A stretch of 64,000 nucleotides of DNA from Polaromonas sp. (GTDB lineage: Bacteria; Pseudomonadota; Gammaproteobacteria; Burkholderiales; Burkholderiaceae_C). Below the pieces are notes generated by a model, which was not told the origin of the DNA, did no database searches, and saw only the letters and a list, made by a program, of their open reading frames with translations. Shown in pieces: positions 10,144-58,295 of this stretch (its first letter is position 1; every line of letters starts with the position of its first letter). The translations under genes were made by a program, and so were the position numbers. Location of the stretch: positions 1-64,000 of the forward strand of contig JAJKJM010000044.1 in the NCBI GenBank assembly GCA_021153985.1. Reading direction: 5' to 3'.

Positions 10144-11328
10144 ATGCTTGCCATGAACTATCGGGGACCTTACCGGGTCCGTGCACAGCAGAAACCTGAA
10201 CCGGAAATAGAGCACCCGTATGACGCCATCGTGCGTGTCACCCGCTCGTGCATCTGCGGCTCTGACCTGCATCTCTACCATGGCCTGGTGCCTGACACGC
10301 GCGTAGGCATGACATTTGGACACGAGTTCACCGGCGTGGTGGAAGAGGTGGGCTCTGGTGTCAAAAACCTCAGGCCCGGCGACCATGTGCTGGTGCCTTT
10401 CAACATCTTTTGCGGCTCGTGCTTTTTCTGCCAGCGAGAGCTCTACAGCAACTGCCACAACACCAACCCCGAGGCGACGGCCGTCGGCGGCATCTTCGGC
10501 TACGGGCACATCACCGGTGGCTATGACGGCGGGCAGGCCGAGTATGTGCGCGTGCCGTTTGCCGACATCGGCCCTACGGTGATTCCGCCTGACCTGGATG
10601 TGGACGACGCGGTGCTGCTGACCGATGCGTACCCCACCGGCTACCAGGCCGCCGAGATGGGCGAGATCGAGCAGGGCGACACGGTGGTGGTGTTCGGCGC
10701 GGGGCCGGTGGGCCTGTTTGCGGCCAAGTCGGCCTGGCTCCTGGGTGCCGGGCGGGTCATCGTGGTCGACCACATCGATTACCGGCTGGAGTTCGCGCAC
10801 AAGTTTGCCCAATGTGAGACGGTCAACTTCAAGGATGTCGACGACATGGCCATCCATATCAAGAAGATGACGGACTGGCTGGGCGCCGACGTGTGCATTG
10901 ACGCCGTGGGGGCCGAAGCTGCGGGCAGTTTCGCGCACCGGCTGACGGGCGTGAAGCTCAAGCTGCAGGGCGGCTCGGCCATCGTGCTGCACTGGTGCAT
11001 CAACTCGGTGCGCAAGGGCGGCGTGGTGTCCATCGTCGGGGTTTACGGCCCGACCTTTAACGCCATTCCGATCGGCAACGCCGTGAACAAGGGCCTGACG
11101 CTGCGCATGAACCAGGCCAGCGTCAAGCGCCACCTGCCGCGGCTGATCGAGCACATCCAGGCAGGGCGCATCAAGCCCAGTGAGGTGATTACCCACCGGG
11201 TGCCGCTTGAGGAAGTCTCAGACGCGTACCACCTTTTTTCGAGCAAGCTCGACAACTGCATCAAGACCGTGCTGGTGCCGCCGCGCGCCGCCATCGATAC
11301 CCCTACCCGCATCGCTGTACCCGCTTGA
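10144..11328 (+). CDS. zinc-dependent alcohol dehydrogenase (glutathione-dependent formaldehyde dehydrogenase-like)
   Basis: CICGSDLHLYHGLVPDTRVGMTFGHEFTGVVEEVGSGV, GAGPVGLFAAKSAWLLGAGRVIVVD. Confidence 0.93.
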   Translation: MLAMNYRGPYRVRAQQKPEPEIEHPYDAIVRVTRSCICGSDLHLYHGLVPDTRVGMTFGHEFTGVVEEVGSGVKNLRPGDHVLVPFNIFCGSCFFCQRELYSNCHNTNPEATAVGGIFGYGHITGGYDGGQAEYVRVPFADIGPTVIPPDLDVDDAVLLTDAYPTGYQAAEMGEIEQGDTVVVFGAGPVGLFAAKSAWLLGAGRVIVVDHIDYRLEFAHKFAQCETVNFKDVDDMAIHIKKMTDWLGADVCIDAVGAEAAGSFAHRLTGVKLKLQGGSAIVLHWCINSVRKGGVVSIVGVYGPTFNAIPIGNAVNKGLTLRMNQASVKRHLPRLIEHIQAGRIKPSEVITHRVPLEEVSDAYHLFSSKLDNCIKTVLVPPRAAIDTPTRIAVPA

Positions 11329-55204: not shown

Positions 55205-55282
55205 TGCTGGCTGCACCGGTGTGATGGAGATCCGCTTGCCCTTGCGCAGGCTGATCAGGTCTTCCAGATCTTTGTGGCTCTG
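55205..55282 (-). pseudogene. Vestigial 3' fragment of an EVE-domain gene
   Basis: Minus strand KDLEDLISLRKGKRISITPVQP, compare intact EVE protein ELADLQVLRKGNRLSITPVEP. Confidence 0.65.
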
Positions 55283-55297
55283 TAGCAAAAGCTACAG
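55280..55297. promoter_or_regulatory. Perfect palindrome CTGTAGC-aaaa-GCTACAG (candidate Crp/Fnr operator)
   Basis: 16-bp core TGTAG-N6-CTACA has CRP-like geometry; TATCTT -10 candidate at 55318-55323. Confidence 0.6.
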
Positions 55298-55372
55298 AAC
55301 GCTTTCCCCGGCGCGGCTATCTTCGCGTTCATGCCCGCATTGCGGCATGCAACCAAGAAAGAAAAACCCATC

Positions 55373-55771
55373 ATGTCCAAGGAAATCTACTGGCTGGCGT
55401 TGACCCTGGCCGCTGCGGCTTTGTTCGCCTTGCCTTACGTCCTCAACCGCATAGCCGTGCGTGGCCTGGGCGGTACGCTGGCCAACCCGATCGTCACAGA
55501 AAAACCCCTTGCCGAGTGGGCCCAGCGCGCACAGCGGGCCCATGCCAATGCCACCGAAAACCTGGTGATTTTTGCGCCGGCCGTGTTGGCGGTGCAAACC
55601 AGCGGCCGAGCCGATTCGGTGACGGCCGCCGCCTGCGCCGTCTACTTTTTTGCGCGGCTCATTCACTATGTGGTCTACACGCTTGGTGTTCCCGGCGCAC
55701 GCACACTTGCCTGGGCGGCGGGCTGGTCGGCTACGCTGGTGTTGATCGGGCGCCTGCTGGGGGTGCTGTGA
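55373..55771 (+). CDS. MAPEG-family membrane protein
   Basis: EIYWLALTLAAAALFALPYVLNRIAVRGLG...RAQRAHANATENLVIFAPAVLA. Confidence 0.9.
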   Translation: MSKEIYWLALTLAAAALFALPYVLNRIAVRGLGGTLANPIVTEKPLAEWAQRAQRAHANATENLVIFAPAVLAVQTSGRADSVTAAACAVYFFARLIHYVVYTLGVPGARTLAWAAGWSATLVLIGRLLGVL

Positions 55772-56415
55772 GCCGGCCCTTCGCACTCATCGCGGGGAGC
55801 GGAGGTGTGCTCGGCGAATCGCTTGCACGGCAGTTCAGCGGGGCAGGGTATGAGGTGGCGGGCCTGCGGCGTGCAGATTGCGATCTGGCGGACGGTGACG
55901 CGGTGGCGCAAGCCATCGCGGCCCTAACCGAGCGCCACGGGCCCGTCGACACGCTGCTGTACAACGCGGGTCATCTGGCAATTGCTCCTTTTCTTGAACT
56001 GGAGGCGGGTGCGCTGCGCGAGTGCCTTGAGGCCGGCCCCGTCGGGGCGGCGCACTGCGCCCTGGCCGTGCTGCCGGGCATGCTGGCCGTGGGGCGCGGT
56101 AACTTGCTCTTCACTGGCGCCACGGCTTCGCTGCGCGGGTCGGCCCGCTTTGCGGCCATGGCTGCGGGCAAATTTGGCCTTCGCGGGCTCGTGCAGTCAC
56201 TGGCAAGAGAGTTCCAGCCGCAGGGCATCCACGTGGCCCACGTCGTGCTGGACGGCATGCTCAGCGGCTCTGCTGCCGCATCGCGCTACGCGGCAGCCGA
56301 AGCCCCAGTGATGGCGCCTGACGGCGTGGCTGCCAATTTCATGTGGCTTGCGCAACAGGCGCGCACCGCATGGACGCAGGAGCTGGACCTGCGGACCGCA
56401 TCGGAGAAGTTCTGA
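55768..56415 (+). CDS. short-chain dehydrogenase/reductase
   Basis: GTG start overlapping the MAPEG stop; ALIAGSGGVLGESLARQFSGAGYEV, LLYNAGHLAIAPFLEL. Confidence 0.88.
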   Translation: MSRPFALIAGSGGVLGESLARQFSGAGYEVAGLRRADCDLADGDAVAQAIAALTERHGPVDTLLYNAGHLAIAPFLELEAGALRECLEAGPVGAAHCALAVLPGMLAVGRGNLLFTGATASLRGSARFAAMAAGKFGLRGLVQSLAREFQPQGIHVAHVVLDGMLSGSAAASRYAAAEAPVMAPDGVAANFMWLAQQARTAWTQELDLRTASEKF

Positions 56416-57119
56416 TGGAGCCGATGCGGCTGAACGCCGACCGTACGGAGCCCGTCCTCGTACGGGCCGGGTCGCTGCCGTGGCTGCCGTCGCCGCAACC
56501 CGGGGTCGAGCGGCGCATGCTAGAGCGTGCCGGTGCAGAGGTGGCTGTGGCAACGTCGCTTGTGCGCTATGCAGCTGGCAGCCGGTTTGACGCGCATTCG
56601 CATGCGCTGGGCGAAGAATTTTTTGTGCTCAGCGGCGTATTTGCCGATGAGCACGGCTCATACGGCCCCGGTACCTATGTGCGCAATCCGCCGGGCTCCA
56701 GCCATAGGCCTTTTAGCGACGAGGGTTGCATCATCTTCGTCAAGCTGCGGCAGATGAACGCACTCGAACAGCGCCGCGTTGTCATCCGTGCAGCAGACAG
56801 GCCCTGGGTGGATGCAGGAATCGCCCGGCATCGGCGTGCATTGCTGCATGAGGGGCCCAGGGAAACCGTTTTCCTCGAACGGCTGGAACCGGGGTGTACC
56901 ATGGCCGCGCAGCACGCGCGTGGCGGGCAGGAAATGCTGGTCGTCGAGGGCTCGGTTCGTGTCGAAGCCGGTGACAGCACGAACGCACGCGCTGCGGGTG
57001 CGCAGGACCTTGGCCCTATGTGCTGGCTGCGTAATCCACACACCCGGCAGCCTGCGCTGGCCAGTTCCGAAGGTGCCTTGTTGTGGGTCAAACGTGGCCA
57101 CGTGGTATCGACGGTTTGA
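56415..57119 (+). CDS. ChrR-type (anti-ECF sigma) double-cupin protein without an ASD domain
   Basis: FDAHSHALGEEFFVLSGVFADEHGSYGPGTYVRNPPGSSHRPFSDEG; second cupin in the C-terminal half. Confidence 0.87.
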   Translation: MEPMRLNADRTEPVLVRAGSLPWLPSPQPGVERRMLERAGAEVAVATSLVRYAAGSRFDAHSHALGEEFFVLSGVFADEHGSYGPGTYVRNPPGSSHRPFSDEGCIIFVKLRQMNALEQRRVVIRAADRPWVDAGIARHRRALLHEGPRETVFLERLEPGCTMAAQHARGGQEMLVVEGSVRVEAGDSTNARAAGAQDLGPMCWLRNPHTRQPALASSEGALLWVKRGHVVSTV

Positions 57120-57150
57120 AGGTGCGGCAGGCCGCCGCGAATGGAGCACT

Positions 57151-57828
57151 ATGCAGGTCTTACGTGAGCTTGCCCTTTTCGAGCCTTTCAGCCGCCTGAG
57201 TGCTGATGGCCGTAGCCTGTTGACGGAGGGCGCGGTTCCGATGAATGCGCTGGCAGGGGCCGGCATCATTCACAAGGGCCAGCCGGCCTCCGGCGCCTAT
57301 GTGGTGCTGTCAGGCCGGTTGCGCGTATACACCGTCACGCCTGCCGGTACCGAGGCGACGCTCTATCTGGTGGAGCCCGGCGAGACCTGCGTGCTCTCGC
57401 TCAACTGCCTGTTCAACGATCTCCTTTATCCTGCCTGGGTTCAGGCCGACAAGGCCACGCGTGTCGCCGTCATTCCAGGCCCCTTGTACCGGCAGCTCTT
57501 CAAGCAGGAAGCCTGCATCCAGGACCTGACGCTGCATGCGCTCTCGACACTCGTTTTCAGGTTGATGGCAGAACTCGATGCTGTTCATTCCTTCAACCAT
57601 CGGCAACGCCTTGTGCATTTTGTGTTGCTGCACGCCTCGTCCGATGGGGTACTGAAAACGACGCAGCAGCAGCTGGCCGGGCACCTGGGTACATCGCGTG
57701 AAGTGGTGGCGCGGCTGATGCAGGGGCTGGTCGCGGAAGGGTTCCTGAAAAGCCAGCGCGGTCAGATCATCATCAAAGACCTGTTCGGTTTGCGCCGCCT
57801 GCAAAGCCTGCCGGAGTCCGGCGCCTGA
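57151..57828 (+). CDS. Crp/Fnr-family transcriptional regulator
   Basis: cNMP-like beta-roll GQPASGAYVVLSGRLRVYTVTPAGTEATLYLVEPGETCVLSLNCL; HTH TTQQQLAGHLGTSREVVARLMQGLVAEGFL. Confidence 0.9.
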   Translation: MQVLRELALFEPFSRLSADGRSLLTEGAVPMNALAGAGIIHKGQPASGAYVVLSGRLRVYTVTPAGTEATLYLVEPGETCVLSLNCLFNDLLYPAWVQADKATRVAVIPGPLYRQLFKQEACIQDLTLHALSTLVFRLMAELDAVHSFNHRQRLVHFVLLHASSDGVLKTTQQQLAGHLGTSREVVARLMQGLVAEGFLKSQRGQIIIKDLFGLRRLQSLPESGA

Positions 57829-57836
57829 CAGGCTTC

Positions 57837-58295
57837 TCACTTTTTGCCGGTGATGGCTTTCCAGTGCTTCGGCTCGACCGGCGTGATGGACAGGCGATTG
57901 CCCTTGCGCAGCACCTGCAGGTCGGCAAGTTCCGGCCGCGCGCGCAGGGCGGGCAGGGTGATGTTGGGTATCTTGCGCAACACCTGCACATCCACCAGCA
58001 TCCATCGCGGCTCTTCGGGTTTTGACTTGGGGTCGTAGTAGGGTGATTTCGGATCAAACTGCGTGGGATCAGGGTAGGGCGTAGACGCTACCTCTGCAAT
58101 GCCGACAATGCCAGGCTCGGCACAACTCGAGTGATAAAACAACACCCCGTCGCCAACCTGCATGCCGTCGCGCATGAAATTGCGCGCCTGGTAGTTGCGC
58201 ACACCTACCCAGGGAACCGTCGATTTCTTCGCCGCGAGCGCGTCGTCGACCGAGCATTCTTCAGGTTCGGATTTCATGAGCCAGTAGCTTGTCAT
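57837..58295 (-). CDS. EVE domain protein
   Basis: YWLMKSEPEECSVDDALA...WVGVRNYQARNFMRDGMQVGDGVLFYHSSCAEPGIVGIAEVAS. Confidence 0.95.
   Translation of the reverse strand: MTSYWLMKSEPEECSVDDALAAKKSTVPWVGVRNYQARNFMRDGMQVGDGVLFYHSSCAEPGIVGIAEVASTPYPDPTQFDPKSPYYDPKSKPEEPRWMLVDVQVLRKIPNITLPALRARPELADLQVLRKGNRLSITPVEPKHWKAITGKK

Follow-up and report, generated by a model that had tools for sequence, protein, structure and literature searches.

A Crp/Fnr-type regulator, its predicted class II operator and an exchangeable set of neighbouring genes in a MAPEG–SDR–bicupin operon of a Polaromonas-type bacterium

What controls a compact group of four same-strand genes, and does the ChrR-like cupin encoded among them take part in that control or belong to what is controlled? 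The question is raised by a locus in the window analysed here, a stretch of 64,000 nucleotides from a Polaromonas-type bacterium, where genes for a MAPEG-family membrane protein, an SDR-fold protein, a stand-alone bicupin and a Crp/Fnr-type regulator occupy positions 55373-57828 of the plus strand. The original prediction regarded the four genes as a single unit with its own palindromic operator under Crp/Fnr control, and the cupin as a signalling part that had lost its sigma factor. The coordinates, the Pfam families and the close packing of the genes agree with that description: the first two genes overlap by 4 bp (GTGA, the SDR gene starting with GTG), the second and third by 1 bp (TGATG), and a 31-bp gap precedes the regulator gene. 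For the MAPEG gene we prefer the start given in the table, because the ATG of the longest open reading frame, at 55331, would lie inside the leader hairpin described below. No Rfam family was matched in the whole window.

Table 1. Coordinates of the genes and of the predicted control elements of the operon (positions in the window).
Feature	Position	Strand	Details
Operator TCTGTAGC-AAAA-GCTACAGA	55279-55298		core TGTAGC-N4-GCTACA (TGTA-N8-TACA)
-10 hexamer TATCTT	55318-55323	+	begins 29 bp from operator centre; predicted +1 at 55330
5'-terminal mRNA hairpin CATGCC-CGCATTGC-GGCATG	55330-55349	+	begins at predicted +1
MAPEG-family membrane protein gene	55373-55771	+	132 aa; Pfam 3e-23
SDR-fold gene	55768-56415	+	215 aa; Pfam adh_short 5.8e-24
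Stand-alone ChrR-type bicupin gene	56415-57119	+	234 aa; Cupin_7 1.3e-46
Crp/Fnr-type regulator gene	57151-57828	+	225 aa; HTH_Crp_2 (PF13545) 6.8e-14, cNMP_binding (PF00027) 5.7e-13

The unity of the four genes is supported by their distribution. Among 301 genomes of the same family, the window's own included, an orthologue of the Crp gene is present in four; the other three proteins are 71-82% identical to that of the window, the next-best matches being only about 32% identical, and the order MAPEG-SDR-cupin-Crp is found in all four carriers. Altogether the same order is seen in the window and in four other Burkholderiales genomes: G165, Ramlibacter ACE_PRO44, Polaromonas A23 and a groundwater Burkholderiales MAG (L037). 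The flanking genes are dissimilar among the window, G201/Polaromonas A23, the G048/G165 pair and L037, and therefore the four genes travel together, in keeping with the single unit that had been proposed. One genome (G499) harbors the MAPEG-SDR-cupin triplet without Crp, beside a LysR gene. A wider partnership of MAPEG with SDR and cupin genes was considered and rejected, as in a class-level search the MAPEG homologues found elsewhere had none of the other genes with them. In L037 a second MAPEG gene (10270-10665), 72% identical to that of the window, lies about 3.6 kb downstream of the block. Upstream of the operon the window contains genes of a TctC-type binding protein and an amidohydrolase (Pfam), which in the neighbourhoods of relatives are not conserved alongside it. 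Directly upstream of the operator, on the minus strand (55208-55285), there is a remnant that resembles the C terminus of EVE-domain proteins (58% over residues 117-142), and an intact EVE gene (57837-58295, minus strand) ends just downstream of the operon; the two may be a trace of how the four-gene block was inserted.

The regulator itself is far more widespread than the block. Two peptide patterns taken from it and run against 84,980 species genomes retrieved 69 loci, which are mutually related, so that counts over them are not counts of independent events. They encode relatives 52-81% identical to the window's protein, in Betaproteobacteria, Gammaproteobacteria (including Thiodiazotropha symbionts) and Alphaproteobacteria (Magnetospirillum). 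In most of these relatives the Crp gene stands behind a SCO4226-like gene, a gene of a MauG-type di-haem peroxidase, or both; a smaller group has it following a DUF4142 gene. The five regulators linked to MAPEG-SDR-cupin form one clade (SH-aLRT 99) nested within the SCO4226/MauG-linked set, and the MAPEG-SDR-cupin payload is therefore derived. In the literature on ChrR with MAPEG, on the operator letters and on Crp with MauG or SCO4226, we found no description of a MAPEG-SDR-cupin-Crp system.

The palindrome lies where it had been proposed, its centre at 55288.5 falling at the predicted position -41.5, with no visible -35 hexamer. At a first look, about 40 loci showed TGTA-N8-TACA sites ahead of the operon. 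In a scoring of the operator (maximum 12) that covered 3.3 kb ahead of each Crp gene and 300 bp behind it, 45 of the 69 loci had a best site of at least 11, the figure for five control half-sites being 3 of 345, and a score of at least 10 was reached upstream of 59 of the 69 operons; the remaining 10 loci lack a good site, some of them owing to short contigs. Although the -10 offset played no part in the choice of these sites, the distance from the operator centre to the first base of TANNNT is 29 bp in 44 of the 59 promoters and 30 bp in 7, other offsets being nearly empty, so that a class II layout, with the transcription start predicted from sequence only, is found in 51 of 59. Judged by these comparisons, the operator belongs to the Crp subfamily at large and is no peculiarity of the Polaromonas strain.

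Within the 4.5-Mb draft genome the core TGTANCNNNNGNTACA occurs exactly once, and the regulator's own operon is therefore most probably the only one that it activates. The full pattern of operator and -10 likewise has one perfect match, at the MAPEG-operon promoter; with two or three mismatches it finds merely the reverse-strand reading of the same palindrome and one chance-like site, and a reversed control pattern matches the genome more often than the true one. A genome-wide regulon was accordingly considered and rejected, only the operon's own site being a fit. In relatives most of the distant operator matches lack a -10. In three loci (L039 1388, L099 4487, L072 3063-3169) another copy of the operator, equipped with a -10 of its own, stands in front of an isochorismatase-family gene close to the Crp gene, and this gene is likely to be an additional regulon member there. 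As a separate observation, the exact 12-base palindrome is present in six copies in G103 and in five in G213, two genomes without a close Crp orthologue, where the copies are probably repeats.

The predicted transcript begins with a hairpin, and this feature too extends through the subfamily. A stem of at least 5 pairs whose start falls no more than about two bases from the predicted +1 is found in 29 of 51 promoters (the window and 28 related leaders), irrespective of the genes downstream, as compared with a mean of 2.7 and never more than 9 in 500 shuffles. The letters of the stem vary with the pairing kept (GUGCC/GGCAC, AUGCC/GGCAU, GCUGC/GCAGC, ACUAC/GUAGU and others), which points to structure in the RNA and not to another binding site in the DNA, and the mean folding z is -1.33 for the leader versus -0.32 for the spacer. 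Stem-loops at the 5' end commonly slow the decay of bacterial mRNAs.

As to the regulator, its two Pfam domains place it in the Crp/Fnr superfamily, and the PDB matches are all of the CRP type, 3dv8 being the top fold match of the AlphaFold model (pLDDT 81.7), which serves for fold assignment only and is of low confidence at residues 82-84, in the region of Cys80. The recognition helix reads R183-E184-xxx-R188. The protein belongs neither to CRP proper, whose Arg82-Ser83 is replaced by Tyr93-Pro94, invariant in a 53-row alignment, nor to FNR, as the window's protein has no cysteine before residue 80. With Arg-Ser changed to Tyr-Pro and the N-terminal cluster cysteines missing, the protein is expected to use neither cAMP nor a cluster of the FNR type. 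In the subfamily alignment Cys80 is kept in 69 of 69 proteins, His146 in 68 and Cys86 in 45; in the other 24 Cys86 is replaced by Ser or Ala, and a Cys80-Cys86 disulfide therefore cannot be the general sensing step. The invariant Cys80 is the prime candidate for the input of the inducing signal, which by our inference would be thiol-reactive or of the haem type.

A sister group with the Cys-x5-Cys arrangement, about 32% identical, has cysteines at the positions of both Cys80 and Cys86 in all 26 proteins examined and lacks the His146 and YPAW signatures. YgaP-like membrane (TM) genes were seen in two of its scanned neighbourhoods, and CxxCxxCC genes also adjoin the sister Crp (L026 1211-1567, L014 2107-2388, L016 2386-2670); these neighbours hint at sulfur or metal chemistry. 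As many hosts of the subfamily are sulfur oxidisers, sulfur sensing may be entertained as no more than a lead; a search of the literature on it yielded nothing specific.

The three proteins encoded ahead of the regulator differ in how closely they follow their families. The MAPEG protein scores 82.8 bits against PF01124 (cut-off 23.4), retains the MGST1-like glutathione motif RAQRAHANATEN (R-x-x-R-A-H-x-N-x-x-E-N) and matches MGST1 in the PDB (2h8a, 3.5e-5); according to PMC6798054, MAPEG-type glutathione transferases of cyanobacteria, in particular a MAPEG2-like protein, function in tolerance to lipid peroxidation. In the SDR-fold protein Lys135 and Ser121 are kept, and the catalytic Tyr is replaced by Met131 in all four orthologues, which removes the classical Tyr-x3-Lys signature and makes the role of a simple carbonyl reductase doubtful; its closest PDB structure, 3h7a (2.7e-35), has Phe at the same position.

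The cupin consists of two Cupin_7 stretches (Pfam), i.e., it is a bicupin, and its sole PDB match, 3o14 (1.2e-69 with a 5-row profile), is itself a bicupin that is named ChrR in the PDB and aligns with it end to end. The ligand pattern HxH...E...H noticed originally is borne out by H61, H63, E67 and H97 of domain 1, invariant in 5 orthologues and corresponding in kind to the zinc ligands His141, His143, Glu147 and His177 of ChrR, whose cupin-domain metal site is required for the release of the sigma factor by singlet oxygen (PMC6852236). The anti-sigma part is indeed missing: the protein begins at the cupin, and the NCBIfam model anti_sig_ChrR gives 32.8 bits against a cut-off of 124.5. A sigma-70 region 2 gene was also sought and is absent from the window's contig, 12 being located elsewhere in the genome. 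Of 300 Burkholderiales genomes, 49 encode stand-alone bicupins of this type, and the contexts vary (in the sampled loci, next to genes of GST, an EamA transporter, amine oxidase, DsrE, OsmC, VIT1, LysR and others), and among the annotated genes adjacent to them in that sample neither a sigma factor nor, in particular, an ECF partner was encountered. The cupin is therefore read as payload.

Taken as a whole, the locus is in our opinion quite probably under the control of a local class II autoactivator. The Crp/Fnr-type protein would bind TGTAGC-N4-GCTACA at -41.5 and activate one promoter, giving one four-gene transcript that carries the 5' stem-loop; as this transcript would include the regulator's own message, the loop would be positive and local, its positive sign being inferred from the operator position only. 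As the input we envisage a reactive species whose target would lie at, or close to, the invariant Cys80, within what in CRP is the cAMP-binding pocket. The operon as a whole would be a self-contained detoxification unit, the three proteins encoded ahead of the regulator being probable enzymes of detoxification or metabolism. The MAPEG protein may be a glutathione transferase or peroxidase of the membrane, the bicupin a metal-dependent enzyme or a ligand binder, and the SDR-fold protein, having lost its classical catalytic Tyr, would act jointly with the two. A peroxide or electrophile role of the operon is plausible, because the MAPEG protein carries the glutathione motif and a MauG-type peroxidase fills the same slot in relatives; that the three proteins specifically handle lipid hydroperoxides or reactive carbonyls is possible and is put forward tentatively, as something short of an even expectation.

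Several other explanations must be weighed against local autoactivation. Short palindromes do arise by chance, and the exact 12-base motif is present in 22 of the 297 genomes that lack the regulator; one could thus suppose an inverted repeat, or an unrelated element, in front of four genes without common control. Such a coincidence is scarcely credible, as the motif, its position and the -10 spacing recur in dozens of operons of three classes, and the locus scores and the uniqueness of the pattern in the genome contradict it, as do the counts in carriers: three of the four have the exact motif, one copy each and at the operon, and the fourth, Polaromonas A23, has an operator with two mismatches at the same place. 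If the operator is real, the regulator might still be an autorepressor or act in both directions, being freed from its site by the signal, since autoregulation through a promoter palindrome is also common among repressors. We consider this quite unlikely: a centre at -41.5 without a visible -35 is the standard layout of class II activators, and a repressor would tolerate other positions, whereas the 29-30 bp spacing is kept in 51 of 59 promoters from the three proteobacterial classes.

The remaining alternatives concern the signal and the enzymes rather than the sign of control. Catabolic pathways often employ cupins and SDR-fold proteins, diketone cleavage is known for some cupins, and the TctC-type and amidohydrolase genes lie upstream, so that a small catabolic operon for a diketone-like, aromatic or lipid compound could be imagined, with Crp sensing a metabolite and not stress; it is nevertheless unlikely, though less so than autorepression, because those upstream genes do not accompany the operon and the same regulator would in relatives drive di-haem peroxidase-type and SCO4226-like proteins rather than a catabolic set. 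The view that the ChrR-like cupin is a sensor of peroxide or singlet oxygen which signals to Crp instead of an ECF sigma factor has in its favor the four retained ChrR zinc ligands (PMC6852236) and the predicted co-transcription with the regulator. This part of the original prediction found no support and now appears very improbable: most Crp relatives pair with other genes, about 60 of them managing without such a cupin, and therefore Crp needs no cupin to sense, stand-alone bicupins are frequent and in the sampled neighbourhoods had neither Crp nor a sigma factor as partner, and MAPEG-SDR-cupin is also found without Crp.

The analysis gives a previously uncharacterised and unnamed subfamily of an already known type of regulator a predicted operator, a promoter geometry and a set of targets: SCO4226-like, MauG-type peroxidase, DUF4142, isochorismatase-like and MAPEG/SDR/bicupin proteins. 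The exchanged payloads also offer a route to the signal, since unrelated enzyme sets must all answer the same one. A bolder extension, which seems to us rather doubtful, is that the regulator, the -41.5 operator, the -10 and a working 5' stem-loop form a portable cassette that is kept across proteobacterial classes while the enzymes are exchanged, with Cys80 as a thiol sensor of a new kind. Were this true, the stem-loop could multiply the output, e.g., by protecting the 5' end, or constitute a second step of control, and the Cys80 sensor would have been built in the old cAMP pocket.

The comparison with known systems delineates what is shared and what is peculiar. With CRP and FNR of E. coli, both class II activators, the regulator has in common the fold and the -41.5 position, and with CRP also the R-E-xxx-R recognition helix and the 5-N6-5 symmetry of the operator; under the site rules of CRP and NtcA, the half-site spacing TGTA-N8-TACA is that of NtcA, and the operator found here is like it. 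The regulator differs from the CRP/FNR activators in the half-site TGTAGC, in having nearly a single target per genome and in the change of Arg-Ser to Tyr-Pro, and from FNR in the missing N-terminal Fe-S cysteines. CooA binds haem through Cys75/His77; Cys80 lies in a comparable segment, but there is no His at the CooA position. The closest solved structure, both for the Cys-x5-Cys Crp/Fnr relatives and for the regulator, is 3dv8. The MAPEG protein shares motif and family with MGST1 and the bacterial MAPEG glutathione transferases, the overall similarity being weak as judged from the sequence match. Finally, ChrR of ECF11 from Rhodobacter sphaeroides shares with the bicupin a cupin domain and its four metal ligands, whereas the bicupin possesses two cupin domains and neither an anti-sigma domain nor an ECF partner, so that from the label "ChrR" on a cupin one should not conclude that a sigma factor is involved.
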